Shown here in pieces: positions 3,504 to 48,571 of a stretch of DNA of 64,000 bases. The notes beneath the pieces are model-generated. The model was not told the origin of the DNA and did not search any database. It saw only the letters and a program-made list of their open reading frames with translations. The DNA lies in the NCBI GenBank assembly GCA_027422505.1, contig JAPQWV010000017.1:18167501-18231500 (forward strand). The letters are read 5' to 3'. Every line of letters begins with the position of its first letter. Within the stretch, counting starts at the first letter, position 1. The translations under genes were made by a program, and so were the position numbers. The DNA is from Craterostigma plantagineum (taxonomy: Eukaryota; Streptophyta; Magnoliopsida; Lamiales; Linderniaceae).

Positions 3504-4918
3504 TCAGGTAGGGAGAAATAACTCAGGGTAGCGAATCCTCATATCGTCTTCCCATTCCCACGTAGCTTCTTCTGTGGACTGATTCTGCCATAGAACTTTT
3601 ACTAACGGGATTTCCTTATTCCGTAGTCTTTTCACCTCATACATTAGGATCTCTATCGGTCTTTCCTCGTAACTTACATCTGGTTTGAGATGTTGGTGCA
3701 GATTTTCACTACTATTCACATGGTTTGGGTCTGCGACGTACTTCCGTAATGTTGATACATGAAAGACATCATGTACTTGAGCTAGCGAGGCTGGTAATTC
3801 GAGTTGATACGCCACTTTACCAACTTTCCTAAGGATTCGAAACGGTCCTATATACCTCGGGCTCAGTTTGCTCTTCTTCCCAAACCGTTTAACTCCTTTC
3901 ATATGAGATATCTTCAGAAACACATAGTCATCTACTTCAAACTCCAATGGCCTACGTTTTTGATCTGCGTAGCTTTTCTGCCTACTCTGCGCTGTTTTCA
4001 TTCGTTCTCGTATCTGAGCAACGACTTCTGTCATTTCTTGCACTAGGTCAGGACGTAGTATTGCTCGTTATCCCAATTCATCCCAATGGATTGGGAACCT
4101 ACACTTTCGCCCGTATAACGCTTCGTATGGAGCCATTCCAATCGTGGCGTGGTAGCTGTTGTTGTAAGAAAATTCGATCAGAGGGAGGTATCGACTCAAT
4201 TTCCCTTGAAATCGAGCACACAGGCTCTCAGCATGTCTTCTAGTGTCTGGATGGTTCGTTCAGACTGTCCATCCGTTTGAGGATGATAAGCAGTACTGAA
4301 GGATAGCTTGGTTCCCATGGCCTTTTGCAGACTCACCGAAAATTTGGATAAGAATCTCGAATCACGATCAGAAATAATTGAGATCTGATCTCCGTGGAGT
4401 CGTACTATTTCTTGGATGTACAATTCTGCGTACCGTTCCATAGAAACATTGAACTGATCGGCAGAAAGTGGGCAGATTTGGTCAGTCAGTCTACGATGAC
4501 CCATATAGCGTCGTGGCCCTTCACTATTTTCGGCAATCCGACGACGAAGTCCATTGTAATATGATCCCACTTCCATTCAGGTACGGCAAGGATTATAGAG
4601 TTCCTGCTGGTCATTGATGTTCCGCTATGACTTGCTGGCACGTCAGGCATTGGTTTACAAAAGTTGCAATTTCTCATTTCATTCCTGGCCACCAATAGTT
4701 GTTTCGTAGATCACTGTACATTTTCGTCGCTCCAGGTGGATAGAGTAAATTGTGAAATGTGCTTCTGTCATAACAGTCTTCCTAAGTTTTGCATTATTAG
4801 GAATGTATAGACGATCTCTGTAATATAAAGTCCCGCGGGCTTGTATTGCAGAGTCTGCTGATCTTTGTTCTGGTTGCACTTCTTTGATTTTTAAGTACAA
4901 TTCGTCGTTCTCCTGCAC
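3504..4918 (-). pseudogene. Tekay integrase with GPY/F and chromodomain (broken)
   Basis: C-terminal part of a Ty3/gypsy Pol. From the N-terminal side it shows an H2C2-type zinc region (4918-4630), the integrase catalytic core (4630-4200, with [25 protein letters not shown] and [13 protein letters not shown] carrying conserved D and E positions), a GPY/F-like module (LSPRYIGPFRIL) and a chromodomain at the end (EILMYEVKRLRNKEIPLV, then EATWEWEDDM). It inserts viral cDNA into chromatin; the chromodomain is thought to guide target choice. The reading frame is split by shifts near 4690, 4560 and 4190-4050. It ends just before the PPT, as in complete relatives. Certain as to family, clearly non-functional. 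Confidence 0.88.
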
Positions 4919-4927
4919 CTTCGTGAT

Positions 4928-5546
4928 CTACTCCATCAGTGTAGGACGGATCGTTAATGCTGCTAGCCTCATCTCAATCTCGCCTATTGGTATTATTTCC
5001 ACTTCAAGCCTTTGTAATTCTGTGCTTATGGTTTTGCGGCTTAGAGCATCCGCAACCACATTTGCCTTCTGTGGGTGATAGCTGATTACACAATCGTAAT
5101 CTTTGACCAATTCTAGCCATCGTCGTTGTCGCATGTTCAACTCCTTCTGGGTGAAGAAGTATTTCAGGCTTTTGTGGTCGGTGAAGATTTTGCATTTCTC
5201 ACCGTATAGACAATGCCTCCAGATTTTAAGAGCAAAGACTTCGGCAGCGAGCTCCAAGTCGTGCGTCGGGTAATTCTTTTCGTATTCCTTGAGCTGTCGT
5301 GAGGCATACACGACTACATTTCACTTCTGCATCAAGACGCATCCTAAGCCGTTCTTTGATGCGTCGCTATATACGGAAAATCCTCCAGTCCCCGTGGGTA
5401 TCGAGTATTGGTGTCGAAGTGAGTCGTTTCTTCAATTCCTAGAAGCTCTGCTCGCAAGCATCGTCCCATTTGAACGTAGTATTTTTCTTCGTTAGCTTCG
5501 TCAGATTTGATACGATCTTCGAGAAATCTTTGATGAACTTCCTGTA
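4928..5546 (-). pseudogene. Tekay RT C-terminus and RNase H (broken)
   Basis: This continues the Pol interrupted by the Sirevirus. Removing 5552-17422 and one copy of GTATT joins a frame reading [18 protein letters not shown] across the insertion point. The RNase H part follows with [34 protein letters not shown] and [11 protein letters not shown], all typical of gypsy RNase H. In-frame stops lie between about 5500 and 5311. It would degrade the RNA strand of the RNA-DNA hybrid during reverse transcription. Confidence 0.87.
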
Positions 5547-5551
5547 GTATT
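5547..5551. repeat. Target site duplication GTATT (left copy)
   Basis: GTATT immediately left of the Sirevirus LTR. The identical copy is at 17423-17427. A perfect 5-bp duplication fixes the insertion of 5552-17422 inside the Tekay RT gene. Confidence 0.93.
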
Positions 5552-5832
5552 TGTTGGCCCTTATATTACCAAACAAGGATCAAAAGAAAGGTTTGAATGT
5601 CAAAAACGTGAAGAACACCTTGAGTGCGTGTTAGTGTGTGTTTATCTAAGGAAAAGTACAAGGTGGCTTACCTTTTAAATTCTTTTGATAAAACCCTAAT
5701 TAGGGTAAGTGGGGCTTTATATACCACCTTACCTAATATCACTAGTCACCCCAAACTACTACAACCCACTAAATAAGTACATATTAATCCAAGATTACAT
5801 TAATTAAAGGATGCTACAAAATATTCCTAACA
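5552..5832 (-). repeat. 3' LTR of the Sirevirus
   Basis: Begins TGTTGGCCC and ends CCTAACA. It matches 17109-17422 except for eight substitutions, one single-base indel and a missing ~34-bp segment (present at about 17284-17317). Confidence 0.92.
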
Positions 5833-5834
5833 AT

Positions 5835-5842
5835 CTCCCCCT
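5835..5842 (-). promoter_or_regulatory. Terminal polypurine tract of the Sirevirus
   Basis: Minus strand AGGGGGAG, three bases from the LTR. The stop codon of the upstream extra ORF (TAA, 5844-5842) abuts it, so the ORF extends to the very end of the internal region. Confidence 0.85.
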
Positions 5843-6600
5843 TAGCATCCTTTTCGCTTTGCCGTTCTTGGTGTCTTCTTCTTCTTGGGTTTCTCCACTG
5901 CATAGACCGATTTCCTGAGTCCAAGTCTGAACTCGTATGATCGTATCGTTCTTAAGGAAATTCGATCTGAGATGATGTTGATCAGCATCTCGTACTTCTC
6001 CTGTACCTCTGCTTCTTCGAACCTTAGCTGCTCCAGAATCCTTCCGAGTTTGCTCCGAATAATCAGCAGCGTTCCATCGCTGAATTTGGCAATCTCGGAT
6101 GTTTTCATCAGTCTTTTTCCTCCTTTGTAGTTGATGTAGACCACTGATGGATCGTTGTCTTCATTGATTATGTGGCCTTCACCAAGACTTGGGTCTGGGA
6201 CTTCGAAGGATGGCTTTGTGAGGTTCACCCTTTTCATGTTGCTTTCCACTGCCATTTGTAGATCGTGGGTCGAATTGAACTTGATTTGGCGCATCATGAA
6301 TCGCTTAAGAGCAACGTATCCCACTCTTTAGTCTGGATTCTGGAGTGTTCCAAGAAATCTGAAGCTTCCCAGTATCTGATCAATGTCTTCACCTCTGATG
6401 TATGAGAGATCCCCTTCAGTTAGCTCCTCGACCGTTCCAGTTTCTCGATGCACTTTGTAGATAGGATACTCGTAGAAGTCGAGACGACCTCGCCGTACTC
6501 CTAAGATTTTGCTGATTCTGGCTCTTTCCTTCTCTTCTCTTCTAAGAGTGTCAACGTTAGTATCTTTTTTCCCCTCCAACCCTCTACGAAGAGAAAGCAT
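5842..6600 (-). pseudogene. C-terminal domain of the extra ORF
   Basis: Two adjacent frames in the same phase separated by one stop (near 6326). The first has YEYPIYKVHRETGTVEELTE then EDIDQILGSFRFL. The second has ALKRFMMRQIKFNSTHDLQM, VNLTKPSFEVP, LMKTSEIAKFSDGTLL and a basic tail (PKKKKTPRTAKRK). The pattern of a leading DI-rich strand, then 'hDLQhxVES...hNLTKP' and 'hxxFSDGTL', is one I know from many asterid database proteins annotated as copia-associated or CCHC/peptidase fusions. No biochemical role is known to me. The basic tail could be a nuclear signal or bind nucleic acid. Confidence 0.55.
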
Positions 6601-6603
6601 GTA

Positions 6604-8064
6604 TCATACAGCGGTTGGTTTCTGGAGATGAGTTAGTCCTCTTAGATCAAGCTCGTCTAACTTCTTGATCCTATCTTCCTTCCTCCAGATTCTTCTTCGT
6701 ATCTCTTCTCGATATGGAGCGATCACTTTGACATTTTCCCACGGTGGTTTTTGTTCTTCTCCTATCTTCGACTTCGAGGGGGCACTCCTCATTGAGGACG
6801 GCGTGTTTGAGAAGTTCGGGAAGTTCTGGAATGTCTGCTTCGCAGTCTTCTCCTTCCTCGAGTTCATCGTCGTCGATAAGGGCCAGGCTAACATTTGCCT
6901 TCATCAAGAAGTATCTGGCATTGTCCAGTAAGCCCTTGGCCAAGGTTGGATGCATCGGCTTTGTTAACCAGTCGTCGTTGAAGATGTATTTCTCTACTGT
7001 TGTGTGTGGGTTGTAAAGTGTTTCGAGAGATACGATGGGAGAGGATGGATATATCAAAGGGCTGTCTTGGCTTGTGGGAAGAGGAGGTGAGAGGCTCATA
7101 GCTGGTGAGGAGGGCTGTTGGGTTGTTTTGGTGGTAGTTCGGGTCGATTTTCTTGTTTGTGTGGGTGTAGGTGGTTTTGTTCTGGTGGGGGTTTGGGTGG
7201 TTCTAGGCTGTGGCTGTTGAGGCTGAGGCCCTGTCTCTCGTGTCTTCTCCCCCTCGGGACGATCCTCGCCGTCAGGGTCGTCACGTGGTTGTCCGGATGA
7301 TTGGGCCTCGCCTGTGTTGGGTGGGTTGAAAGGTAGCTCCAGACGTCTGAGTACCTCCGCCTCATAATCTATTAGCTTAGGTGCAGTGCGGAGTCTGGCC
7401 AGCAGAACATCGATGAGTTTTGGGATTGGAACGTTCCATGGGCAGCCGTCAGTGTCTGGAGATGGGTCGGCTTGAGTGGGTACTTGTTCTGTGACGGGGG
7501 CTTTGCCTTTGTCTCGAGTGGAGGTCCCATGGCACTGTAGACTTGGGTCATGATGGTGTCCTCGAGATCTTTTGCAAATTCTGCGAGGCGATCATTGAGC
7601 CTGGCCTCCGTCACGAATGGGGAAAATAACCTGACGGAGTCACGAAGACGTTCCGTCGTCACAACATCAGTAGAAGGTACTGATGTGCCGCTTGTTTGCA
7701 CAGGACTTGAAGAGCCGAGGCCACCTAGGCTCATCGTTGACATCAAAGCTGAGACATACTCAGATTGATGGCCCAAGGTCGTAGCTGCAGTGATGTTCAC
7801 TACGTTGGGACTTCCGCTCTGTTCCGTACTAGACTCTAGTACGGAGACATCATGGACCGTTCGGTCTAGATCACTAAGATCTAGAGGTGCAGAAACTAAT
7901 GGAAGTGTCCTAGAAAGTGGAAAAATTATGGATGGTGAGGGCACTAGACTCGTTGTGATCAAGGAAGGTGCAGTCTGAGGCGGAGGACCGCTTGTTACAT
8001 CAACCACCTCCGAGCGAGGTGGTGATGAATGACGTGGCACCTCGTGAGTATGTGAAACAATCAT
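6604..8064 (-). pseudogene. Low-complexity middle part of the extra ORF
   Basis: Contains a 230-residue stretch (8064-7372) rich in Ser, Thr, Pro and Val, then a Pro/Thr/Gln-rich linker (7330-7040), then an acidic segment (about 6880-6790, with LIDDDELEEGEDC). Codon periodicity persists although the frame changes, which supports former translation. No catalytic motif is visible. It resembles a disordered connector between the two end domains. Confidence 0.5.
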
Positions 8065-8444
8065 CTGTTGGGCGATGATTGAGTGGCTGGGGAGGGTAGT
8101 TTGCGCGATTGGATCCGATGTCGCGACTTCTACTCGGGGGAAGATAAAGTCATCCCCTGTACCTATGGGCTCGGTCCGGCTTGTTTGTGGACTCGTGGAC
8201 TGAGGAAGACGGTCGTATTTTTGTTTTGTACACCGTTCCTGTTGACTGCCTCCGTCATCCCCTTTGGATTTTCTATTTGTTTGGCTTAGGGGATGAAGAG
8301 CTTCCTAGACCTACACTTGGATGTGGGGGTTGCTTTGTCCCTGAGTTAGGTTCAACTGGGATGTGCTGAACCAGGGGATGGCTCGTAATTTGCGGAGCTC
8401 CGGCTCAGTTGGATCGAGGAGGCGAAGAAGGTGGTACGGTATGA

Positions 8445-9234
8445 TCATGGCCTCCTGATCGATCTTGCTCTTTGTTGATTGGATTTTGATGAGCTTAGGA
8501 GCTTAGGAGATTGATAGCCCTCGTCTCTGGGTCGGCGCTCGATTTCGGGATGAAGATCCACGAAATGTTGGACGATAACAGGTAGCCACCGTAGGTAAGG
8601 GAGCACCGACTTCGTGGATCCGAGACCTCGCCGTCGTAATTGGTCAAGGATGTCCGTCCAGATTAGTTGGGCAACATCATAATTTCTATTGAAGACGATC
8701 CCGTGGAAGATGAGCATGATGTTGCGGTTGCATTTGTCGGACCCTGAGTGTTTCGGCGAAGAGGCACTTGTTTACGATGAGAAACGGGGTCCTCCAAGGT
8801 CCAGGGATGTCTTTGGCAGTGAAATCAGGGAGATGAATGGGGTTTTGGGCGTTAGGTTTGTCGCCCATGAATAGGAAGTCCCTGATTAGGTCATCGTTAG
8901 ATAGATGGGGATCATATAGGAGTGAGTGTGGTAGGTTTAGTATGGAACGGAGAATGGACGGGGTAAAGACAACTATGGTGTTGTCAAATATGGCAGAAAG
9001 ACTGGTTATTTCTGGGTTATTGGTTGGTTTCTGAAGAGTGGACCAAAATTGTTGGACGTAGACCTCGGTAACAACCTCGGTGATATTTAGCGCAGTTTTT
9101 AGAGGATGGTTTGCTAGGATTTTAACAATGACGGGATCTGGGCACGAGGTATTGTCAAAGTATAGTTAGAAGTTATTTGGTGCCCTCTGTGCCTAGTCCT
9201 CTGAAGCGAAAACCTCATCAATTAGTCGCACCAT
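8445..9234 (-). pseudogene. N-terminal domain of the extra ORF
   Basis: Read through the breaks, this contains VYVQQFWSTLQ, NTIVVFTPSILRSILNLP, RDFLFMGDKP and GPWRTPFLIVNKCLF, then after a one-base shift IMLIFHGIVFNRNYDVAQLI and LPYLRWLPVIVQHF. Such segments are often annotated in plants as putative plant transposon protein or retrotransposon envelope-like. I recognise the general family but not a function. Two early stops (codons 14 and 22 from the ATG) show decay. Confidence 0.55.
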
Positions 9235-9239
9235 TTTAG

Positions 9240-10640
9240 TATATCTGCAAGATAAAATTAATGGATTAGTAGGAACCAATCATGACAACGTTTAGAAATA
9301 CAATGTGAAGTATGATTTGAAATCAAATGTTGTTCACATCTTAGGACTTAGACAAATTTTGCCAAAAAAGACACGTGAGTAAAATTCGTTGAGATAGAGA
9401 AATTTTAAAATTGAATTAATCACGCGGCGAAACAATTCATAGGAAATCACAAAGTTAATCAGTTTCGATCAAAGTTCAAATTCCAATTACAAAGTCAGTG
9501 TTATTGAGTTTTGCGCAAGACTGTGTATCAGGCGATTCAATTTATAATCAGATTATAGGGTCCAGCTTCGGCGAAAGTGGAATTCAATCGATCAATTCAA
9601 TTTAGACTGCAGTTTCAATCGAAACTACGAACAGAGTGATTTAAAGATATGTTATGTGTGAAAGACAGTTTCGGCCGAGAGTCAAAATCAAACAATTGAA
9701 ATCAATTTAAATTGGGAAAAACCAGTTTCGGCCCAAAGTCCTAAATTGGGCGATTGAATCAAAGTGAAATAGCAATAGACAGTTTCGACCGCGAGTCAAA
9801 GTCAACAATTGAAATAATTTTAAATTGATAGAACCCAGTTTCGACCGAAAGTAATAAATCGCTCGAATCGGTCAATTGAAAAATCATAGAAGTAAAATGA
9901 GTAGTATCGATCGATTTTAATATGAAATTGAATCTGGGTTGTAGTTTCCGGCGAAGTTAAAACTAAATGGAAACACGATTGAAGCTAGATTCGCCGAGAA
10001 AAAAATCACAAAGTAGTTAAATTACAGTTTCGATCAATTCAATGCAATTCAATCCAGTTTCGATCGAAACGCGTTTTGGGCGAAAGTCAGTTTCGCCGAT
10101 AAAATTAGAAGATGATTTAGTCAAATATTCAATTTCAATTGAAGCGTGTTTCGGGCGAAAGTCAGTTTCGCCGAGAAAATATAAAAGGATTTAAAATGCA
10201 ATTTCGATCGAAACTTGCGTCGTGGATTTGTTAAATCAATTTAAAGGAGTTTCGGGCGATACGCAGTTTCGCCGAGAAAAGTTTTGAATTAATTGAAAAT
10301 TCAGTTTCGATCGAATTTGAGCTGAGTTTCGGGCGATAGCCAATTCAATTGAAATGAGTTTCGGGCGATATGTAGTTTCGCCGAGTAAATTTTAAAAGGA
10401 TTTTAAGAAAATTGTCAGTTTCGATCGAAATGGGTTTTGGGCGATAGTCAGTTTCGCCGAGAAAATATTTGAAATATTTGAACATTTTAGTGTCGATCGA
10501 ATTTAAGAGGTTTCGGGCCAAATATTTGAAATATTTGAGTATGTTAATTTCGATCGAATTTAAGGAGTACCGGGCGATACATAGTTTCGCCGATAAACGA
10601 TTTGAAATACTTGAATTCAGTTTCGATCAAATTTGGAATT
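9240..10640 (-). repeat. Degenerate repeat region between pol and the extra ORF
   Basis: About 1.4 kb without genes, made of scattered copies of three words on the plus strand: TTTCGGGCGATA, GTTTCGATCGAAA and TTTCGCCGAG. TTTCGCCGAG/T cores lie near 10092, 10166, 10268, 10377, 10453 and 10586, at irregular spacing of about 75-130 bp. GATCGAAA elements are partly palindromic (TTCGATCGAA). The same words recur in the Sirevirus leader and, in altered orientation, in the Tekay LTR. Confidence 0.7.
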
Positions 10641-10732: not shown

Positions 10733-10839
10733 CTCCCCCTCAATTTGTGCGAAGTGTTCAATGTCTCCCCCTAGATTAGTGCTTAACTTTCAAAGACTCC
10801 CCCTAACTCCATGCATAAAAAATTTTACTAGACTCCCCC
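10733..10839 (-). promoter_or_regulatory. Array of four extra polypurine tracts
   Basis: CTCCCCC (minus strand GGGGGAG) occurs at 10733, 10765, 10797 and 10833, at near-regular spacing of 32, 32 and 36 bp, just downstream of the RNase H stop. Multiple PPT copies after pol are a known Sirevirus feature. Here the array is about 5 kb from the 3' LTR, with the extra ORF between. Confidence 0.8.
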
Positions 10840-10904: not shown

Positions 10905-12460
10905 TTACACAATATCAGGTTCATGTAGGGACAATCTACGGTTCAACATGCCTAATCTAGAGACCAGGAATTGGAATCGCTTTTCATCCAATGCCTTAGT
11001 GAATAGGTCGGCAAGTTGAAGATCTGTGTGAACAAAATGCATTTCGATTGTACCTTGTTCCACATGTTCCTTGATAAAGTGATATCTAATGTCTATATGT
11101 TTTGTGCGTGAATGATGTACTGGATTACTTGTTATAGCTATAGCACTTTTAGAGTCACTAAAATTTGGAATACGATTTAATATTATGCCAAAATCTCGCA
11201 GCTGGGTTCTCATCCACAAAATTTGTGAGCAGCAACTCGCAGCAACGACAAATTCTGCCTCTGCTGTCGAAGTTGAGACACAATTTTGCTTTCGAGACGA
11301 CCAGCTTACAAGTTTACCCCCGAGAAATTGAGCGGCTCCAGAAGTGCTCTTTCTGTCCAGCTTGCATCCTGCGTAATCAGCGTCGGTGTATCCTACGAGT
11401 TCGAAGCTTGACTCCATCGGGTACCATAGACCTAGATTTGGAGTTCCCTTGGGGTATTTGAAAATTCTCTTGACAGCGAGCATGTGAGACTCCTTGGGAT
11501 CTGCTTGAAAACGACACAGAGACACGTGGCGAACATGATGTCAGGCCTACTGGACGTAAGATAGAGCAGGGATTCTATCATGCCTCGATAGATCGTCTGG
11601 TTAACAGATTTTCCTGATGAATCTGCATCAAGTTTGCATGAGGTAGACATGGGAGTGATGGCAGCATTAGAGTTGTCCAAGTTGTACTTCTTGAGTATGT
11701 CGTGAATGTACTTGGATTGACTAATGAAGATTCCTTCGTGAAGCTGCTTAACCTGAAGGCCTAAGAAAAAGCTAAGTTCGCCCATCATACTCATTTCAAA
11801 TTTCTGCTTCATTAGATCCCCAAAGTTCCTGCACATTCTTGAGTCTGTTGACCCAAATATAATGTCGTCGACGTAAATCTGCACTAACATAATGTCTGAG
11901 CCGTCCTTCTTGATGAAGAGAGTTGTATCGATCTTCCCTTTTGTGAAACCAGAGGAGATGAGAAAATTCGAGAGGACCTCGTACCAGGCTCTAGGAGCTT
12001 GTTTAAGTCCATAGAGAGCTTTATCGAGTCTGTACACGTGGTCTGGGAGTTGTTCGTTTACAAAACCTTCAGGCTGAGATACAAAAACTTCTTCTTTTAG
12101 TGTTCCGTTGAGAAATGCAGTTTTGACATCCATCTGGTAGACTGTGAAGTTCTTGTGTGCAGCGAAAGCTAAGAATATCCTGATGGCTTCAATTCTTGCG
12201 ACTGGGGCATATGTCTCATCATAGTCGATTCCTTCTTGTTGATTGTAACTTTTTGCTACCAACCTTGCTTTATTCCGGATAACAACTCCTTGCTCGTCCT
12301 TTTTGTTCTTAAACACCCATTTCGTCCCTACGATAGTTTTCCCAGTCGGTCTAGGTACTAGGTTCCAAACTTTTAACCTCTCAAACTGATTGATTTCCTC
12401 CTGCATTGCGACTATCCAATCTGGATCGGCGAGTGCTTCAATTACTTTGTTGTGCTCCTT
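10905..12460 (-). pseudogene. Sirevirus reverse transcriptase and RNase H (broken)
   Basis: Copia RVT_2 domain (about 12406-11450) with [45 protein letters not shown], the catalytic [10 protein letters not shown] and [14 protein letters not shown], typical of the SIRE/Maximus group. After a frameshift near 11500 the RNase H follows (11525-10905) with VGYTDADYAGCKLDRKSTSG, STAEAEFVV and HTDLQLADLFTKAL. Active-site residues of the YVDD motif are present, but the frame break separates RT from RNase H. It would copy element RNA into DNA. It lies directly after the truncated integrase. Confidence 0.9.
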
Positions 12461-13150
12461 TTGACTGAGAAAGCAGGAATAAATGGCCCATTAACGGTCT
12501 GAGTGCGCATGGGTCCACATAGATCCATATGAATGAGTTCGAGAGGTTTGGAAGTTGAGGCTATGTGTTTGGTCCGGTGGGATGCCTTCCTTATCTTTCC
12601 CATTTCACACGCCGAGCAAATATGCTCTTTGTGATATCTGAACGAGGGAAGTCTTTTGACCAAGTTTTCTGATCGCAGTTTGTTTAGGTCTTTGAAGTTG
12701 AGATGGGAAAGTCGTTGATGCCAGAGATCGTTCTGATGTAGAGAGGCTCGAGAGATAAGGCATGTCGGTCGGACAGTCTTGAGGTCAATGGAGTAGAGAT
12801 TAGTCTTCCTGTGTCCAGTGAGTAGCTCTCTTCCACTGTTATCTATGACACTACATTTGTTGGTCTCGAAGTTCACCTTGTAGCCTTTGTCACAAAAACG
12901 TCCTATGCTGAATAAATTGTAGCTCAGTCCTTCGACGTAGGACACTCCTTTGATGGTTAGCCTGTCATGGATGAGATCACCCGTTCCTAGCATGGATGCA
13001 GATTAACGAGAAATCCTTCAGAGAAGTTGCTCAACAGCTCTTTGTTTCCAGTCATGTGTGAGGAGCAACCTGAATCAAAGTACCACACATGACGGACCTC
13101 CAAAGAGAATCAAGTAAGTTTTGGCACCCATTTATAGATGGGCCCCCTTT
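12442..13150 (-). pseudogene. Sirevirus protease and pre-integrase domain, integrase core deleted
   Basis: Protease motif WYFDSGCSSHMTGNKELL near 13065-13010, ending in a stop and a small deletion near 12995. The frame resumes as LGTGDLIHDRLTIKGVSYV, then the HHCC zinc domain (WHQRLSHLNF...CSACEMGK, 12740-12590) and the start of the integrase ([18 protein letters not shown]). The text then jumps at about 12490 into the segment preceding RT. The DDE catalytic core and everything up to the RT linker is therefore missing, roughly 300 residues compared with complete copia Pol. Confidence 0.85.
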
Positions 13151-14559: not shown

Positions 14560-15861
14560 TCGGCTATCCTACGTTCAGGTTAAGGAAATCATTTAGGGAT
14601 GGAGTGTATACCTCCAGGTCGGATGAAGAGACATCTGTCCTGTCTGATCCAATGGCTGGCTCATCCTCGTCGGAGTCATCTTCAATGCTTTTCACCATGA
14701 AGGCCATTTCTTCTTCCTCCTCGTCAGATGTATCCTCCAGCCATTCCTCTTCCTCAGCCACCAAGACAATTCCCGCCTCCTTGCGTTGTGAGAGCTGAAA
14801 TTTTTTCTTGTAGTATTCAGTGTTTTTCTTCTTAGGTCGGAAGCATTCAGAAGCAAAGTGACCCGGCTTGCCACAGTTGAAGCACTTCTTTACTACTTCA
14901 GATTTCTTAGATTCAGCCTCTTCAGGGGCAATGTACTTCTGTTTCCCGCCCGAGGTTCGTTGTTTGTTGAAGGAAGAAGACGATTTCTTGGCGCTCATCT
15001 TATTGACCGTATATGAGATCATTGCCAGTTTCTTTCTAATGGATTCGAGTTCGTCCTCAGATTCTTGGTCAGATTCGGCATTGCCAGAGGTGTTAGATTG
15101 TACGACCTGCTTTTCTTTAGAAGTCCTCGAGCTCCTGTTGCTTGACTTAGAAGTCACGAGTGCAATTGGTTCCATGTCGACGTTTGGTTTTCCTTCGTTC
15201 TTGATTTCTTTGGCATACTGCGAGTATTGTAAGAGATTATCGTGTAGGGAGTGAATATTCATAGCGTCCAGATCTTTGTTCTGTTGCTTAACCAGAACTG
15301 CAATCCGTCCCCACTCAGGTTGAAGTGTGGAAAGGAACTTGATGTTGTGTTCGAGATTGGAGCACTGGATGTTGATCTTTCTCATCTCGTTGATGATGGT
15401 CAAGAAGCGAAGGTAAACATCTCGAAGTTTTTCCCCCTCCTTAGCTTTGAAGGAGTCATAGGCAGTAAGGATGCTGGACTTCTTAGACAGACTACTAACT
15501 TCTGTTCCGACCATCATTTTGCAAACTTCATCCCAAATTTCCTTTGCAGTGACCAGTGCATCGACTTGTTTGTAGACATCATTTGGTAGGGCCTGAAGTA
15601 CGTAGTGTCGGGCAAGCTTGTCCGCTCTGGCACATGCTCTCTCACCATCATTGTATCGACTGGGATAGGAACAGCATCGGGTTGAGAAGGGATGGTGGTC
15701 CAGAATTGAGCAGGTCCTTCAAAAATGGAGGAAAGCATGTCGTTCGCGAGGTCTACATCCTTGATTTCTATAAAGTTGATGAATCGTTGCTTCCATATGC
15801 CGTACTCTCCCCATCTCAGTAGTGGTGCATGGTTGTCAGATTCAATAGCAAGACCGTCCAT
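14560..15861 (-). pseudogene. Sirevirus gag (broken)
   Basis: Copia Gag of the UBN2/Retrotran_gag type. It starts MDGLAIESDNHAPLLRWGEY at 15861. A frameshift near 15640 moves to the frame reading YDSFKAKEGEKLRDVYLRFL. A CCHC zinc knuckle (CFNCGKPGHFASEC) lies at about 14887-14846, followed by an acidic Asp/Glu/Ser-rich tail and a stop near 14565. The protein forms the virus-like particle and binds element RNA. The start is chosen because it opens the conserved N-terminus directly after the leader. Confidence 0.88.
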
Positions 15862-17093
15862 GTTTGTGTTTGGTAATGATCGTTAACGCGAGATATCTGC
15901 GAAATGAAACGCTTTAGTTTTGAATGAGATATAGTCAAGTTTGAATAATTTCTAGTGTTGAGTCTAAGTAGGTAAATTCACTTAATGAATTCTGTCGCAA
16001 TATAAGAATTTGATGAACTTAGAGTACTGCTCGAGGATGGAACGATTGGTGTTATGTGAGATTGAGAATTGTGTTCTACTCAATTTGAATGCTTGATCGA
16101 TTCTAGTATGATATGGACATAAGCTCGGCAATTGGTCCTAAGTGTTGAGAATTGGGCAATTGAAATTGAGTTTTCAAGAATCGGGCGAAAGAGTTTTGAA
16201 AATGTGAGTTTTGATTGAAAGAGGGATTTCAATTTAGATAAGGTTAGTTTCGATCGAAATAGGGATTTAGATTTTGATTTGAAAAAAAAAATAGTTTCGA
16301 TCGATAGGAATGAGAAGTTTTCGGGCGATCGTGGTCCAAATTGGCTTTCTTTCGATTGACTAAGATTGAATTTGGCTAATTTGACGATTGAGTTTCGGGC
16401 GATACAGCAAATGAGTTGGACTTTCGCCGAGTATTGTATCGGTTGAAACGTAGCAATTGGGTACTGTAGCCTTTCGGGCGAAACGAATTGGACTTTCGCC
16501 GAGAATTGTATCGGTCGAAACGTAGCAATTGGGAACTGTAGCCTTGGCGAAAGGAATTGGGCTTTCGCTGAGAATTGTATCGGTCGAAACGTAGTAACTA
16601 GAAACTGTAGCCTTTCGGGTGAAACGAATTGGGCTTTCGCCGAGAATTGTATCGGTCGAAACTGTGTGATTGGCGAAAAATTCGTCGAAACTCAAATCGA
16701 TTGGACTTTTGCCGAGAAGTCTATCGGGCGAAACTGTGAATTGGTGAGAGAGAACTTAAAATTCAAATCGATTGAAGCTACTCACAATGGGGTTCGATCG
16801 AAACCTTCAAACTCAAAAGTACTGTTCTATCGGGAACAGTTCAGTAAAAAAAAATTTTCAGACTCGTTTTTGCTCAAATCCTACTCAAACTCGACTAAAA
16901 TCAACGTAAAAGAGCATGAATGTTCTTAAAATCAGTTTTCTAACATCCTAGGGTTAAGAAATCACTGAAAACGATTTAAAAACACCTAAAAAACAGTGAA
17001 AAATCGAAAATGAGTTTTTCTAGCATAAACTTCTTCAAATCACGTCGAAATCGAGCAAAACTGGATTCAAATGGAAGATATTGATCTGCGTTA
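15862..17093 (-). repeat. Sirevirus leader with ~71-bp tandem repeats
   Basis: A 1.2-kb untranslated leader between PBS and gag. Around 16380-16700 about four tandem copies of a ~71-bp unit occur (GTATCGG at 16436, 16508, 16578 and 16649). Each contains TTTCGGGCGAAAC, CTTTCGCCGAG and GTATCGGTCGAAAC. A minus-strand ORF over the array (16695-16360) simply translates the repeat and is not considered a gene. Confidence 0.8.
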
Positions 17094-17106
17094 GGCTCTG
17101 ATACCA
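17094..17106 (-). promoter_or_regulatory. Primer binding site (tRNA-iMet type), Sirevirus
   Basis: Minus strand TGGTATCAGAGCC, two bases inside the 5' LTR. It is complementary to the 3' end of initiator tRNA-Met, the usual primer of copia elements. Confidence 0.9.
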
Positions 17107-17108
17107 CT

Positions 17109-17422
17109 TGTTGGCCCTTATATTACCAAACAAGGATCAATAGAAAGGTTTGAATGTCAAAAACGTGAAGAATACCTTGAGTGCGTGTTAGTGTGTGTTT
17201 ATCTAAGGAAAAGTACAAGGTGGCTTACCTTTTAAATTCTTTTGATAAAACCTAATTAGGGTAAGTGGGGCTTTATATACCACAAGTATTTGGTATATTA
17301 AAGCCCAATACAAAACTCTTACCTAATATCACTAGTCACCCCAATCTAATAAAACCTACTAAATAAGTACATATTAATCCAAGATTACATTAATTAAAGG
17401 ATGCTACAAAATATTTCCAACA
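17109..17422 (-). repeat. 5' LTR of the Sirevirus
   Basis: TGTTGG...CCAACA on the plus strand, 314 bp, the longer copy of the pair. Contains TTTATATACC at about 17273, a possible TATA region. Confidence 0.92.
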
Positions 17423-17427
17423 GTATT
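17423..17427. repeat. Target site duplication GTATT (right copy)
   Basis: Identical to 5547-5551. Together they bracket the Sirevirus. Confidence 0.93.
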
Positions 17428-18279: not shown

Positions 18280-18760
18280 TTAGGTGGCTTCACATCCTGT
18301 CCTGATCAGGCGTTGTGCCTTCATCGCGGAGATCTTGGGAATTCTGCTCTTGCTAGTTCCCGTAAAGGTGAAGGGTTTGATGTCTACTAAGTTGAAAGTT
18401 ACTTTCTTACCGTTGCAGTCAACAACTGCTTCGTACTTTGATAGCCAATCCATTCCAAGAATTACTTTGTAATCGTTCATTGGAATGACTATCAGGTCAA
18501 CGGGTAAGGTCCTATCGTTCACTAATACTGGGTTATTTTGTAAAACCTGATTGGTTCGGGTCGAAGCTCCATGAGGTATGGTAACATTGTACTCATAGTT
18601 AACTAGGTCAGGTGTAACCCCGAGTCTCGCCACGTAGTTGGTAGATGCAAATGAATATGTGGCTCCTGAGTCAACTAATATGCTTGTCGGGTTGAGTGGA
18701 TAAGGAGAGTACCTGCCACCACATACGGGTTGTTCTCCGCCTCCTCCGATGTTAGCGTAT
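18280..18760 (-). pseudogene. Tekay aspartic protease
   Basis: Retropepsin-like domain with ILVDSGATYSFASTNYVARL (active DSG, about 18690-18640) and VILGMDWLSKYEAVVDCNGK at about 18460-18410. It is open from 18861 to 18280, so this is the best-preserved part of the element. It would cleave the Gag-Pol polyprotein. It overlaps the gag frame on its right side. Confidence 0.88.
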
Positions 18761-19819
18761 ATACTCGAGCAGGTACCATGGGTGGCCTGGCTTGAACCGG
18801 TGCTTGACTCCAGAATGCAGTTTCCGGGCATGCCTTGGAGAAGTGGCCTGTCTTGCCACACTTATAGCAGATAGCATTCTGAGAATAACAGATGCCCAGA
18901 TGTCGTCGCGTGCATTGTGGGCATGGGGGTATGGTCGTTGGCGGTCTCCCTTGATTAGTATTGGGTCGTGGAGGTGGCACAAGTTTGTTCTGGAAATTGG
19001 GCTTGGCATTCTTGGGGAGGAATTGTCTCTTCGGGTTGCCTCCACCCCGTTTTGGTCCTTGTACAAATTTTCTTTCTGCTTCCTGTGCTCGAATGATCAG
19101 GAGTTCAGCTTGCTCCACAATTAACGCACGTTCAGCTACCTGAGCGTAGGTAGTTCCTTGAGATCCGGCCATATTCACATCACGGTATACTTCCGGCTTC
19201 AGCCCTTCCATGAAGCGTTCCACCTTTAGTGCATCTGTGCTCACCATGTGAGCTGCAAAATCGAGACAACTGCTCCAACTTTATGATAGACTCTGCCACG
19301 GTCATCGGGCCCTGGCGTAGATTAATGTTTCGTTCATTCGTTGGGCCCGTACCGGGCGGTGAAATATTTGCTCCTAAAGAGCTCCTTAAATCGGTCTCAT
19401 GTCATCGTAATAGGGTCTTCAAAAGCGAGAATGGTATCCCGCCAATGACCTGCACTTTCCCTCAGTAGGAAGGCAGCACATAAAACTTTTTCTTCCTCCG
19501 GAATGCGGCTATATTGAAACATACTCTCTAAGGTCCTCAGCCAGTCTTCGGCTGTTGTAGGGTCAACAGCATCCTCGAAAGTTGGGGGATTGAGTTTGCG
19601 AAATCTTTCCCCAACTATTTCGACCCTTTCAGCCTGAGAGAGTCCACTATACGATGGTCCGCCCGTATTTCATTGTTGCATCATTTCTTGTATTTGAGCG
19701 GATTGTTGTCGCACCAACTCCGTGAGTTGGAGAATCGTCGTATCTCAATTATCGGTAGGAGTTGCGGGTTACTTGCCCTTATCCGCACCCCCACCACCTT
19801 CCCCTCTCGTTCTACCCAT
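18675..19819 (-). pseudogene. Tekay gag (broken)
   Basis: A plausible start ATG at 19819-19817 (MGRTRGEGGGGADKGK) is followed after 16 codons by a stop. Further stops occur before 19247. Recognisable Gag words include ERVEIVGERFRKLNPPTFED, AEDWLRTLESMFQYS and FLLRESAGHWR. From 19247 to 18675 it is open, with VERFMEGLKPEVYRDVNMAG and the CCHC knuckle CYKCGKTGHFSKAC at 18869-18828. This start is chosen because it precedes the conserved core and follows the PBS by about 140 bp. Confidence 0.85.
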
Positions 19820-41035: not shown

Positions 41036-41240
41036 CTACGTTTGTATGAATCTTTCCTTGCTAATGTTTCTACTGATACATGGTGGATTGACACTGGTGC
41101 TTCTATGCATATAACTTGTTCATTGCAGGGATTCCGTTATGTGAGGAAGCTAAATAAAGGGGAATGCAACATTGTGGTTGGAAATGAAAATAATGTTCTG
41201 ATTGAAGCCGTAGGAACTCTTTGATCAATTTTGGAGAGTG
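41036..41240 (+). pseudogene. Copia-1 protease
   Basis: TDTWWIDTGASMHITCSLQG carries the retropepsin DTGA site. It is followed by [20 protein letters not shown] and a stop at 41224. It would mature the polyprotein. Confidence 0.82.
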
Positions 41241-42720
41241 GTTTTATATTGGGCTTATTTAATACTGCTTGTACCTGGTATTACAAGAAACCTTACTTCT
41301 TTATCTCAACTTGATGTTTATGGCTTCTCGTTTAAGTTTGAGAATAATGGTTTTACCATTTCGTTAAATTTTCACGTTGTTGGCTCCGGAAATTTGGAGG
41401 GAAACCTCTACAAATTATGTTTAAATGCTTCTTTCGCTTATTTAACGGAATCCGCATATGAAATTAGTTCAAGTCAAAGCAATGGCAAAAGAAAGATAAT
41501 CGATGAGAATTCTGCTATATTGTGGCACGAACGTTTAGGCCACATATCTCGAGACAGAATGCAGCAACTCATTAAAGATGGAATTCTTCATCAATTAGAT
41601 TTCTCTAATTTCGACACCTGTATTAAGTGTATTAAAGGAAAATTTACACAAGGAAATAAATGTAGTGCCACCAGAAGTAATGGACTATTAGAACTGATTC
41701 ACACAGATATCAGTGGTCCATATACTGCTGGAATTAATGGCCGCCGATACTTCATTACGTTTATTGATGACCACTCTCGTTATGGATATATTGATCTCCT
41801 TCATGAAAAATCCGAAGCGCTCCAGGTTTTCAAGACTTATAAAGCTGAAGTCGAAAACCAACTTGATTGCAAAATCAAAGTTGTGAGATCTGATAGAGGA
41901 GGAGAATATTACGGGAAATTCTCTGACTCGGGTCGCAATCTTGGAGCTTTTGCCTTGTTCTTACTTGAGTGCGGCATAGTCCATCAGGTTTCCATGCCTG
42001 GGACGCCTCAGCAGAACGGTGTTGCTGAAAGGCGAAACAGTACCCTTATGGATATGGGACGGAGTATGATATGCCAAACATCTTTACCTGAATATCTTTG
42101 GGTTGAGGCACTTAAAACAGCTATGCATATACTTAATCGGGTTCCTACTAAAGCGACGCCTAAAACCCCTTATGAATTATGGGCAAATAGGAAACCGAGT
42201 ATTCATTATTTGCATGTATGGGGCTGTCCTGCTGAAGCTAAAATTTTCAACCCAAACTTACGAAAGCTTGATTCAAAAACCATAAGTTGCTATTTATCGG
42301 TTATCCAAAAAGATCTAAGGGTTTTCGATTTTATTGCCTATCTCATACCACACGAATTGTCGAAACTCGACATGCCGTATTTTTAGAAAATGTCGGTACT
42401 TGTGATCATAGCATATCTCGTAAAATAACTCTTGAAGAGGAATCTAAATCATTAGATGTTCCAATTATGTCAAGAGATTTAGCAATCCCCGAATCTGTGG
42501 GAGGATCGCTAAATAATGAGAATATGCCTAATATATCAGATCACGATAATGATCCTTCTCCATCCGTTGTTCCAGAACCATCTTCAGGGAGGTTTGAACG
42601 AGTGAGAAGGCCGACTTTTCATGATGATTATGTCTATTTAGATGACTGGGATAATTCTATTGGGAATGATCCTGCGTCATTTGATGATGCTATGACGCGC
42701 GACCAAAGAACTCAATGGGC
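41241..42720 (+). pseudogene. Copia-1 integrase
   Basis: Pre-integrase HHCC zinc domain ([16 protein letters not shown]...CIKCIKGKF, about 41523-41640), then the DDE core: [20 protein letters not shown] with the first Asp, [14 protein letters not shown] with the second, [20 protein letters not shown] with the Glu. The frame is open from 41238 to about 42290, shifts there, and continues as [20 protein letters not shown] to the RT linker near 42720. All three catalytic residues are present, so this domain is well preserved. Confidence 0.88.
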
Positions 42721-43794
42721 TTGAAGCCATGAACGAAGAGTTAAACTCAATGAAGTTGAATGAGGTTTGGGACATTGTAGACTTGCCTAAAGGATTCAAA
42801 CCGATAGGTTGTAAATGGGTATTCAAAACCAAACTCAATCCTCAAGGTGATGTCGAACGATAAAAGGCCCGATTGGTCGCTAAAGGGTTTACGCAAAGAG
42901 AAGGTATTGAGTATAACGAAACCTTCTCTCCCGTTTTCAAAAAGGACTCATTCCGCATTATTATGGCCCTTGTAGCTCATTATGATTTAGAGCTACATCA
43001 AATGGATGTTAAAACAGCATTCCTGAACGGTGACTTGCATGAGAATGTTTATATGATGCAACCAGAAGGTTTTCTGGTTGAGGGCAAGGAACACATGGTA
43101 TGCAAGCTTAAGAAGTCCATTTGCGGCCTTAAACAGTCATCTCGACAGTGGTATTTAAAATTTTTAAAGGCGGTTAGTGAATTCGGTTTCAAAGAAAATT
43201 TGGTCGACCAGTGTATATTTATGAAAATCTGTGGGAGCAAATTTATCATTCTTGTACTGCATGTGGATGACATTTAGTTGCCTGTAATGATTTAGGCATG
43301 TTACACGAGACTAAAGAATTTTTACCGAGTAAATTCGATATGAAAGATCTTGGTGAAGCCTCTTATATTACTGGCACAGAAATTCACCGAGATCGAACTC
43401 ATGGCATGTTAGGCCTTTCTCAGAAAGCTTATATTGAAAAGGTCCTTAAAAGATACAACATGCATAATTGCCCTTCCACAGTTGCACCGACCTCTAAAAG
43501 CGAAAGATTTAGTTTATCATAGTGTCCCAGGACGCGCTAGCAGAAATGGATAAAATTCCTTATGCCTCTGTTGTAGGGAGTATTATGTATGCTCAAGTCT
43601 GTACGTGCCCAGATATCGCCTATATTGTTGTGAAAGAAAGGATCCACAATGAGTTAATATCCATTGAGCACATCAGTACTAGTGCTATGGTAGCTGACCC
43701 GTTGACGAAAGATTTACCTACCAAGGTGTTTCTCGAGCACATATATAACTTGGGACTTTATGCGAACTTTGATTTGGAGAGGTCATTAGTTTGA
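42721..43794 (+). pseudogene. Copia-1 reverse transcriptase with deleted RNase H
   Basis: [55 protein letters not shown] and the catalytic VLHVDDI are visible, with an early stop (TAA near 42860) and one after VDDI. The last part reads DMKDLGEASYITGTEIHRDR and YASVVGSIMYAQVCTCPDIA, then jumps to VADPLTKDLPTKVFLEHI. About 150 residues, the main RNase H domain, are missing near 43630. Confidence 0.86.
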
Positions 43795-44679: not shown

Positions 44680-45880
44680 ATGACGTCACCATTCAATTTT
44701 ACTGATCACGCAAAATCGTTTGGAGGGTCCAAACCTTGCGGACTGGCTCCGTAACTTGAGGATAGTCCTCACTCTGGAATGCCTAGAGTATGTCCTTGAC
44801 GGACCCATACCACTCGAACCCCAAGAGGGTGCGAGTGATGCTGACAATGAATATTATGCCAAATGGATGGCTGATAGTGCCCGTGTCAAGGCTTATATGT
44901 TAGGTGGGATGAATAATGATCTGCAGCGCCAGCATGAGGGTATGCAAATGCGCGAGATATTGATTCATCTGAAGGAGTTGTACGGCGAGCAGTTGAGATC
45001 GTCTCGATACCGCACTGCCGACAATCTCTTTCATACCAAGATGCCTGAGGCTGCAGATGTTGCGGCACATGTGCGTAAGCTCATTGGGTACATCGAGGAA
45101 CTAAGTTCTCTCGGTTGTCCCATTCATAATGAGCTTCAGATTGACCTGATCCTTCAGTCACTCCCAGCTTCATTTGCTCAGTTTATTATAAACTATAATC
45201 TGAGCGATAGGCGATTTTCGCTTCCTGAACTCATGAACACGCTCGTTCAGACTCAGCGTGAGCTAAAGAAAGGAAAGGGAAAAGAGGTTGCGCTTGTTGT
45301 GACTACAAGGTCTAAGAGATCTAAGTCGAACAAGCCCAAGCCCAAGCCTAATAAGCCAAAAGGAGGGATTAAGAAAAAAGGAAAGGCTAAAATGAACGTG
45401 CCTAAAGTTCTGAAGGCCACTGATAGGTGCCTTCACTGCCAAGAGCTGGGTCATTGGAAAAGAGATTGCCCCAAGCTTCGAGCTTCTGGGGCTTCAGGTG
45501 AAGTTTTGGAAACTTATTGTTCATTTACTGTATTTTCCACTTCGTGGATTCTTGACTCGGGTGCTAGTGCTCACATTTGTGTTTTGAACCAGGGTCTAGA
45601 ACGAAGTAGGAAGCTGGCGGAACGAGAAGTCTTGATCAACGTTGGTAGCGGACATAGTGTACCTGCTAGTCATGTTGGATCGAAAACTCTTGTATTAAGT
45701 TCTGGACATGTATTATATTTATCCGATGTACTTGTATTGCCCAAGGGGCTGAAGAATATTATTTCTATTCCTGCTTTGAGTAAGAATGGTTATGAATTTC
45801 GATTCAATAATAATATTTGTGAGACTTATTTTGGAAATAAATGCGTCGTTAATAAATGGTTTATATTACGTTAATGTCCA
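44680..45880 (+). pseudogene. Copia-2 gag and protease
   Basis: ATG at 44680 (MTSPFNFTDHAKSF), then a one-base loss near 44720 shifts into the long frame GPNLADWLRNLRIVLTLECL. The Gag body includes ILQSLPASFAQFIINYNLSD. A lysine-rich linker precedes the zinc knuckle CLHCQELGHWKRDC (about 45429-45470). The protease follows in the same frame with SWILDSGASAHICVLNQGLE (DSGA site). The frame ends at 45874 after a shift near 45830. Apart from two shifts this is nearly intact. Confidence 0.88.
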
Positions 45881-47603
45881 GGAACATGCGAATGTAATTA
45901 CCGACAAACGTAACTTAGAGTTAAATAAAAAGTATTTGTGGCATCTTAGACTTGGTCATGCCGGAGTTCGAAAGATTCAAGAGTTGGAGAAACACGGCAT
46001 TATTAAGCCTATGGAATCAGATTCCTATCCAACGTGCGAGTCTTGTATTCTCGGCAAAATGACTAAGTCTCCTTTTACAAGGACTTTTCAAAGAGCCACT
46101 AATCTTTTGGATTTGATCCATATAGACGTTTGTGGACCGTTTAGTGTAGCGGCCCGAGGTAATTTCCATTATTTCGTGACTTTCACAGATGATCACTCTC
46201 GCTACGGCTTGGTGTATCTGCTGAAGCACAAGTCTGAAACGCTTGAAAAGTTCAAGGAATTCAAGACTTTAGTGAAAAATCAAACTGGGAGACAAATTAA
46301 AGTCGTACGATCAGATCGAGGCGGCGAGTATATGAGTCTCGTGTTCGATGATTTCTTGAAAGAAAATAGAATTATTTCGCAGTTTACACCGCCCGGGACA
46401 CCACAACTGAATGGTGTTGCCGAACGAAGGAATCGAACATTATTAGATAAAGTTCGATCTATGCTAAGCTATACAGATCTACCCATATCGTTATGGGGAT
46501 ATGCTTTGCAAACTGCTGTTTATGTTTTGAACAGAACCCCTTCGAAGTCTGTAGATAGGGTACCTTACGAAATTTGGAATGGTAAGAAGCCCAGCTTGAA
46601 TCACTTAAGGGTTTGGGGATGCCCCGCCTATGTGAAAAAGCAAGTAGCAGACAAACTCGAATCTAAGTCCATGAAAGGACATTTCGTTGGATATCGCGAT
46701 GACAGCATGGGATATTATTTTTACTTCCATGATGATCAAAGGATCGTCGTAGCTATTCATGCTCACTTTCTTGAGGAACAGTTCGTTCGAGAAGGTGGAG
46801 CTGGCAGAGAAGTGACTCTTGGAGAGTTAAACGAAGCTCCTCCAGAGACATCAGTGCCTGAGGGCACAGATGAGCAGTCCGAGACGCGCCGAGAATTGCG
46901 CAGGTCGGGTAGAATGTCTCGCATGCCTGAGAGATATGGTATGATACATGTCGAGCACGGAGGTGCTGCGATTGAGGGGATCGTTGGTGACGACCCCGCT
47001 ACCTATGACCAGGCAATGATGGATGTTGACTCTAAGAAATGGGTCGAAGCTATGAAAGCAGAGATGGACTCGATGCATACCAACCAAGTATGGACTCTAG
47101 TAGATCTGCCCAATGGTTTTAGACCTATAGGGTGTAAATGGATCTATAAGAGAAAGATTGGATCTGATGGGCAGGTTGAAACCTACAAAGCTACGCTAGT
47201 AGCGAAATGGTATAATCAAAAAGAGGGCATCGATTATGAGGAAACCTTTTCACCTGTTGCAATGATTAAGTCTATCCGTATTCTGCTTGCTATAGCAGCA
47301 TACTATGATTACGAGATCTGGCAGATGGATGTGAAAACCGCTTTCCTAAATGGATTCCTCCAGGAGAAAATCTATATGGAGCAGCCCAAGGGTTTTACAT
47401 CGCAAGCAGATGTTCACAAAGTGTGCAAGCTTAACAGGTCTATTTATGGACTTAAGCAAGCGTCTAGGAGCTGGAATCTTCGATTTGATGAAGTAGTTAG
47501 GAACTACGGATTCTTAAAGAATGAAGATGAGCTTGCGTTTACAAGAAGGTCAGTGGGAGTAAGATATCGTTCCTCGTATTGTACGTGGATGACATCCTTT
47601 TGA
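45840..47603 (+). pseudogene. Copia-2 integrase and reverse transcriptase
   Basis: A 600-codon open frame. HHCC domain (LWHLRLGHAGVRKIQEL...CESCILGKM), integrase core ([55 protein letters not shown]), a hydrophilic linker, then RVT_2 ([57 protein letters not shown]). The frame breaks at about 47560-47600, just before the catalytic YVDD, and resumes in another frame at 47579. Integrase catalytic residues D, D and E are present. Confidence 0.9.
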
Positions 47604-48571
47604 TGGGAAACGATATCGGGATGCTCTCGGAGGTGAAAGCTTGGCTTTCAACCGAATTCTCCATGAAAGACCTGGGAGAAGTAACCTATATTCTTGGAAT
47701 TCGCCTTTTTAGAGATCGAGCGAATCGAATGATAGGTTTATCTCAGGCCGTTTACTTAGAAAAGATTCTGAAACGGTTTCGAATGGATGAATCTAAGAAA
47801 GGGTTCTTGCCAATTCGACATGGGATTCATCTCTCGAAATCCATGTGTCCTCAAAATGAGGAAGCAAGGAAGGAAATGAGTAAAATTCCTTATGCATCAG
47901 CAATAGGTAGCCTAATGTATGCGATGCTATGTACGCGGCCTGACGTTACGTATGCTTTGAGCATAGTAAGTCGGTACCAGTCTAATCCTGGTAAAGAACA
48001 TTGGAATGCAGTAAAGAATATCTTTAAGTACCTTAGAAGGACTAAAGATATGATATTGATTTATGGAAATGGAGAATTAGAGGTGGATGGTTATACCGAT
48101 TCGGATTTCCAGTCAGACGTGGATGACCGAAAGTCTACTTCTGGTTTCGTCTATACGCTCAATGGTGGAGTAGTGTCTTGGAAAAGTTCCAAGCAAAGCA
48201 CTACTGCCGATTCCACCACTGAGGCGGAGTATATTGCAGCCTTTGAGGCAGCAAAGGAAGGTGTTTGGATGAGGAAGTTCTTAGAAGAACTCCAAGTTGT
48301 TCCAGGCATAATGGATCGCCCGCTGCCATTGTGGTGCGACAATAGTGGGGCAGTCGCACAAGCCAAGGAACCTAGGTCTCATTCAAAGTCCAAACACATA
48401 GAAAGAAAATACCACGTGCTGCGTGGGTTCGTTGAGAATGGCTACATAACTGTGCAGAAAATAGCCACCGCGGATAACGTGGCGGACCCGTTCACCAAGC
48501 CTCTCTCACAGGCAGTGCTTGATCGACACCTCCATAAAATGGGGTTTCTATATCATAGCGCATGGCATTGA
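47579..48571 (+). pseudogene. Copia-2 reverse transcriptase C-terminus and RNase H
   Basis: An open frame of 330 codons beginning MYVDDILLMGNDIGMLSEVK with the catalytic YVDD. It continues with FSMKDLGEVTYILGIRLFRD, IPYASAIGSLMYAMLCTRPD, then RNase H: VDGYTDSDFQSDVDDRKSTS, SWKSSKQSTTADSTTEAEYI, LPLWCDNSGAVAQAKEPRSH and NVADPFTKPLSQ. It ends 15 bp before the LTR. A single shift separates it from the upstream frame. Function would need that shift to be suppressed. Confidence 0.92.

Follow-up and report, generated by a model that had tools for sequence, protein, structure and literature searches.

A decayed Sirevirus-type extra open reading frame in Craterostigma plantagineum, with conserved end domains and a possible anti-silencing role

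The extra open reading frame and its copies in the genome

The window analysed here is a stretch of 64,000 nucleotides from Craterostigma plantagineum (assembly GCA_027422505.1, contig JAPQWV010000017.1, positions 18,167,501 to 18,231,500 of the forward strand), which contains a Ty1/copia element on the minus strand (17422-5552), nested in a Ty3/gypsy element. Our data firmly identify the region between the RNase H of this copia element and its 3' long terminal repeat (LTR) as a decayed copy of a Sirevirus-type extra open reading frame (ORF), referred to here as the eORF. The kind of ORF is already known, since an eORF-3'F or 'env-like' ORF is reported from approximately 74% of SIRE elements (PMC6317226). 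The features of the window copy are:

5842..9234, minus strand: extra ORF (SIRE eORF-3'F / env-like ORF), ATG at 9234, TAA at 5844-5842, decayed
8448..9165, minus strand: N-terminal domain with QFWST motif, two open pieces, distantly PF20167-like, VANC21-like in predicted fold
6674..8304, minus strand: middle, low-complexity and fast-changing
5845..6603, minus strand: C-terminal domain with LTKP and FSDGTL, two open pieces
5845..5900, minus strand: C-terminal tail, basic, resembling a nuclear localization signal
5835..5842, minus strand: terminal polypurine tract (PPT) octamer AGGGGGAG, sharing one base with the stop codon

A preliminary description of the window, made from its letters, had placed an ATG at 9234, a TAA touching the terminal PPT, and two end domains around a low-complexity middle, all of which are borne out here. 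Stop codon and AGGGGGAG overlap by a single base, the final A of the TAA being also the first letter of the octamer, and the distance from the octamer's start to the 3' LTR is exactly 10 bp. The description also spoke of a coding-like region of about 1,100 codons; sister loci do hold an ORF of that size, but the window copy is not intact, as a straight one-frame reading from 9165 to 5845 meets 16 stops and its open pieces are spread over more than one frame.

We searched the whole assembly (1.71 Gb) with the 161-residue C-terminal piece of the window eORF. The search gave 15,590 first-look candidates, 150 of which were scored, and all 150 matched at 88% identity or above, so the region is not unique to the window copy. 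Ten scored rows show an open frame of more than 750 residues, two of them with a stop inside the match. Twenty of the 150 places were fetched as 7-kb loci, about half of them chosen for long open frames. The stop-PPT-LTR junction is recognisable in every fetched locus (letter-exact in 15) and RNase H lies upstream, within 7 kb, in 15, which agrees with the earlier placement of the ORF between pol and the 3' LTR. One ORF of 1,138-1,170 codons is kept in four of the 20 loci; in three of these the ATG lies 69 nt before the N-terminal piece, the same as 9234, and the fourth is longer. Since four loci retain long ORFs and the junction is recognisable in all 20, the extra ORF is more than a chance frame. 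No independent host gene was found among the fetched loci, and for the loci examined the possibility raised earlier that homologues exist only as such genes therefore fails. Our data demonstrate that the window region is a degraded version of a conserved single-ORF protein of approximately 1,138 residues, encoded between RNase H and the PPT by a multicopy Sirevirus-type copia family and consisting of a conserved N-terminal domain, a variable middle and a conserved C-terminal domain with a basic tail.

Constraint, charge and hydropathy

We calculated pN/pS (nonsynonymous relative to synonymous differences) pooled pairwise over the 29 sequences given; the pooled sums lack independence, and the loci do not form a random sample. 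The N-terminal domain gave 0.148 (17 sequences covered; 0.144 in the 12 without stops), the middle 0.475 (19; 0.482 in 14) and the C-terminal domain 0.234 (26; 0.231 in 20). RNase H, for comparison, reached 0.474 (17; 0.329 in 14), and reverse transcriptase (RT) 0.327 (10; 0.174 in 6). Judged from these sequence comparisons, both end domains of the eORF are constrained, within the range of pol, and the middle is looser. The low pN/pS of both end domains against the looser middle is a new finding of this work.

The C-terminal tail is rich in lysine and arginine in 24 of 24 loci whose end was located by its string (28 loci in all), and the net charge is +12 for the C-terminal domain and +7 for the tail. 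By hydropathy, we found no transmembrane segment in the 1,138-residue open ORF of a sister locus (P0001, locus L013), where the maximum Kyte-Doolittle mean over 19 residues is 1.43. This is in line with the earlier remark that the protein is not obviously an envelope. Six relatives from Tanacetum reach maxima of 1.22-1.87, and therefore a weak membrane segment is possible in those relatives. The combination of a conserved basic tail with the apparent lack of a hydrophobic membrane segment is likewise new here.

Relatives of the extra ORF in Tanacetum

A protein search with the 161-residue window piece, in which only proteins 0.55-1.75 times its length were counted, yielded 17 candidates and no relative at E 0.001. 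When residues 800-1138 of the open sister ORF served as query, there was one match among 6,437 candidates, a hypothetical protein of Tanacetum coccineum with 26% identity, which aligns in the C-terminal domain (E 2e-11) and, separately, in the N-terminal domain (E 3e-5). A search with the C-terminal domain of this protein returned 1,530 proteins, and the 120 listed are all named Tanacetum (hypothetical proteins Tco_...). Among those 120, both domains are present in 81 (N before C in 79), and the C-terminal domain lies at most 60 residues from the protein end in 96. Twelve of the listed proteins also carry a copia RT; in the 11 scanned, RT precedes the C-terminal domain in 10 and the order is RT-N-C in nine, with P0032 as the exception. 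Four listed models have Ty3/gypsy-type domains instead; the Tanacetum gene models are automatic and often broken or fused. Furthermore, profiles built without the Craterostigma genome give the open sister ORF 74.1 bits for the N-terminal domain and 47.9 bits for the C-terminal one, against 1.4 and 6.2 for the best of 201 decoys. The FSDGTL/LTKP domain, earlier suspected to be a module carried by copia elements, is thus also found behind copia RT in another genus. Judged by these alignments and profiles, both end domains are homologous to extra ORFs that follow a copia RT in Tanacetum, which is new here. The P0002-type proteins of Tanacetum differ from the Craterostigma family in ending shortly after the C-terminal domain, without the basic tail.

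The window RT is 59% identical to an eORF-linked Tanacetum RT (P0025). Its identity to other copia RT fragments in the window is 44-45% (two fragments) and 25% (a third, short one); all of these are pairwise values. The eORF domains of the Tanacetum relatives share 18-26% identity with the open sister ORF. The eORF thus accompanies this RT lineage and diverges much faster than RT. In a 2019 survey, the published SIRE eORF groups have little or no mutual similarity, and fast evolution versus separate capture is left undecided for 19 unrelated-looking groups (PMC6317226). For the two lineages compared, the Tanacetum alignments favour fast divergence of one family.

Sirevirus placement

Five identical PPT octamers AGGGGGAG lie downstream of RNase H: three before the eORF, one inside it and one terminal.

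10733..10804, minus strand: three upstream PPT octamers AGGGGGAG, 32 bp apart, right after RNase H

An octamer exactly 10 bp upstream of the 3' LTR, several identical octamers in the linker domain, and an extra sense ORF between pol and the 3' LTR, of highly variable sequence as in SIRE elements (PMC6317226, in part), are all present. PPT and layout are therefore of Sirevirus type, in line with the assignment made at the outset. The element also departs from published Sireviruses. In PMC2829016, 56 of 63 extra octamers lie after 'env' and Sirevirus LTRs measure 0.54-1.68 kb (table); here octamers do not cluster after the eORF, none lies between it and the terminal PPT, and the LTRs measure merely 0.31 and 0.28 kb. 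The octamer inside the eORF (7247-7254) is at the same place in 17 of the 20 fetched copies and may be selected or a codon by-product.

Motif arrays and candidate splice signals

Another new observation is the dense clustering of short motifs in the 5' leader and in the linker of the element.

16184..16733, minus strand: leader motif array, span of the leader's 8 GGCGAAA
9426..10591, minus strand: linker motif array, span of the linker's 10 GGCGAAA

Against expected numbers of 0.33 and 0.35, the leader contains 8 copies of GGCGAAA and the linker 10. The respective counts are 6 and 21 for AGTTTCG and 6 and 14 for CGATCGA; none of the three occurs elsewhere in the element, coding DNA and LTRs included. 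The other 52 kb of the window hold 14, 3 and 9 copies, respectively. Nine other copies of the element have 4-12 GGCGAAA in the linker and 0-2 in the eORF. Eight other leaders were fetched, and six of them hold 4-10. The repeats surrounding the motif differ between the leader, which contains a 72-bp tandem repeat (16409-16662), and the linker. Sireviruses are described as carrying a repeated palindromic CGG-CCG motif in the LTR and upstream of 'env', and the RM boxes cluster upstream of 'env' in nine Sireviruses and also in the LTR (PMC2829016, in part). Here, the leader and the region preceding the eORF contain CGGCGAAA-type repeats, the LTR has none, and the full palindrome pattern tried gave one match. 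The arrays thus resemble RM boxes in lying upstream of the eORF and differ in occupying leader and linker, not the LTR.

A donor-like AAGGTAAGC stands 48-49 nt behind TATATAAA in all eight LTRs evaluated, and an acceptor-like site precedes the eORF.

9245..9273, minus strand: stretch resembling a 3' splice site, with CTAAT, a pyrimidine tract and TCTTGCAG, 10 nt upstream of the eORF start codon

Of 16 copies, 13 have TCTTGCAG immediately upstream of the ATG. In one sister copy (L015), whose eORF is open, the sequence adjoining the ATG on this side differs and lacks the acceptor-like site.

Predicted fold of the N-terminal domain

Among solved structures, the predicted fold of the N-terminal domain appears to resemble a single chain, that of VANC21, a DNA-binding anti-silencing protein of a transposon and the only structural relative found. 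This putative VANC21-like fold is new here. The preliminary description had looked to the C-terminal domain as a possible structural or nucleic-acid-binding module and called for fold prediction of both domains; the N-terminal one yielded the candidate match, but the C-terminal one was poorly predicted, and the functional lead comes from the N-terminal domain. No sequence similarity between the N-terminal domain and VANC21 was detectable, and DUF1985/DUF287, which mark VANC sequence membership, gave no Pfam match in the eORF pieces, the open sister ORF or the members of alignments A1 and A2.

The likeness to VANC extends to organisation. According to PMC5735166, VANC proteins combine conserved domains with variable regions, and VANC21 and VANC6 bind tandem motifs in noncoding parts of the encoding element. 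Short motifs are repeated in the element's own noncoding DNA here as well, which concerns the presence of arrays, not binding. The motif itself differs from that of VANC (YAGTATTAY is absent from six leaders), and VANC is encoded by VANDAL DNA transposons whereas the present element is a retrotransposon. A further possible relative is PF20167 (Transposase_32), a putative plant transposon protein reported in the 3' aORF of sunflower Athila (PMC11728184, in part). It matches weakly across much of the N-terminal domain, and none of the members scanned reaches the curated threshold of 45 bits (16.6 bits for the N-terminal domain of L013, 28.5 for P0032). The link runs through P0032 of Tanacetum, whose stretch after RNase H matches both PF20167 (1.6e-6) and N-terminal alignment A2 (97.5%).

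Possible function of the extra ORF product

We tentatively propose that the product is a VANC-like, nuclear, motif-binding anti-silencing protein, a function that we infer and regard as possible rather than probable. The protein would be translated from a spliced RNA, with the donor-like site in the LTR and the acceptor-like site before the ATG, and would enter the nucleus. There, its VANC21-like N-terminal domain may bind the short motifs crowded into the 5' leader and the linker of the same element, and the protein may counteract silencing of the family, as VANC does for VANDAL DNA transposons. RM boxes near 'env' of other Sireviruses could be the same kind of target. A wider version, in which the Sirevirus 'envelope-like' ORF generally is a VANC-type, sequence-specific anti-silencing factor, is a rather speculative extension. 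It would describe one fast-evolving family whose N-terminal domain is related to VANC as well as to extra ORFs of the Transposase_32/Athila type, and which co-evolves with a noncoding motif array (RM boxes) particular to each element family.

Other functions have to be weighed against this proposal. An accessory particle protein that acts with Gag and RNA (as RNA chaperone, in assembly or in nuclear import), its C-terminal domain binding nucleic acid non-specifically, would suit the positive charge of domain and tail, a pN/pS in the range of pol and the chaperone role proposed for such ORFs (PMC7264820, in part). We consider it possible but not probable; it leaves the VANC21-like N-terminal domain and the motif arrays unexplained. 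Alternatively, members of this protein family might simply regulate transcription of the element, for instance from an internal promoter upstream of the eORF, and have no part in anti-silencing. The clustering of motifs just upstream of the eORF and the internal-promoter idea in PMC2829016 speak for such a regulator, but the sole structural relative found is an anti-silencing factor that, as its authors argue, acts primarily by removing silent marks and not by activating transcription (PMC5735166); a plain regulator thus seems unlikely.

That the product is a true env analogue or movement protein, by which particles leave or cross cells, is very improbable. The retroviral env position, the acceptor-like site before the ATG and the literature name 'envelope-like' (PMC3599292 and PMC2829016, both in part) agree with such a role, but the 1,138-residue sister ORF has no 19-residue segment above Kyte-Doolittle 1.43, the tail is basic and of nuclear type, and no Pfam match to an envelope family was obtained. 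A recently captured host gene or chance frame unique to the window insertion would account for the many stops of the window copy; it is refuted by 150 of 150 scored genome places (of 15,590 first-look candidates) at 88% identity or above, by PPT/LTR ends in 20 of 20 fetched loci and by the relatives in Tanacetum, and its probability is next to nil.

The anti-silencing proposal matters because SIRE eORFs have long been named env-like without a proven function, and the VANC21-like fold together with the motif arrays gives a concrete, testable idea, a protein that binds its own leader and linker. Sireviruses make up approximately 21% of maize nuclear content (PMC3599292, in part). If the protein binds as proposed, these abundant elements could carry their own anti-silencing system, and plant DNA transposons and LTR retrotransposons would share the same kind of self-directed escape from methylation. 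In the open-access full text searched, we found no published link between VANC-type anti-silencing or PF20167 and Sirevirus or env-like ORFs. The sunflower methylome is reported to have a strong drop in CG methylation in the central part of SIRE elements, with CHG still high (PMC12844716); this fits the anti-silencing reading in part and is no demonstration of it.

The surrounding element and window

The remaining features of the copia element are:

17109..17422, minus strand: 5' LTR, 314 bp, TG...CA, containing TATATAAA and donor-like AAGGTAAGC 48 nt behind it
5552..5832, minus strand: 3' LTR, 281 bp
5547..5551, minus strand: target-site duplication AATAC, second copy at 17423-17427, both flanks
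17094..17106, minus strand: primer binding site TGGTATCAGAGCC, two bases after the 5' LTR
14567..15718, minus strand: gag, PF14223 match and CCHC zinc knuckle
12445..13002, minus strand: GAG-pre-integrase remnant, Pfam match in open pieces
11435..12490, minus strand: reverse transcriptase, PF07727
10908..11540, minus strand: RNase H region, from position and a match to another copia element in the window
3507-5311, minus strand: Ty3/gypsy part with RNase H and Tf2-type SH3 domain, from domain matches
18283-19247, minus strand: Ty3/gypsy part with protease and zinc knuckle, from domain matches

The LTR pair is identical at 272 of 280 aligned bases, with 35 gap columns in addition. TGGTATCAGAGCC recurs in six of six other leaders evaluated, and we take it to be an initiator tRNA-Met-type primer binding site; under that assignment the element has the tRNA-Met-complementary site of Sireviruses. 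The RNase H region, which gave no Pfam match, ends at approximately 10905 and is followed by the repeat-rich linker of 1.67 kb. No integrase core (rve) was found among the Pfam matches of the open pieces scanned, including the junction of GAG-pre-integrase and RT (12445-12490). The AATAC duplication sits between both Ty3/gypsy parts, the gypsy element being split by the copia insertion. Since its flanks are Ty3/gypsy and no integrase core was found, the copia element is nested and internally damaged. Without an integrase core, the window copy would be movable only with help, if the loss came before insertion. Two more copia elements or fragments of other lineages, near which tblastn (E 0.001) found no relative of the eORF pieces, lie on the plus strand at 41238-43501 and 44720-48571 and carry integrase, gag and RT.
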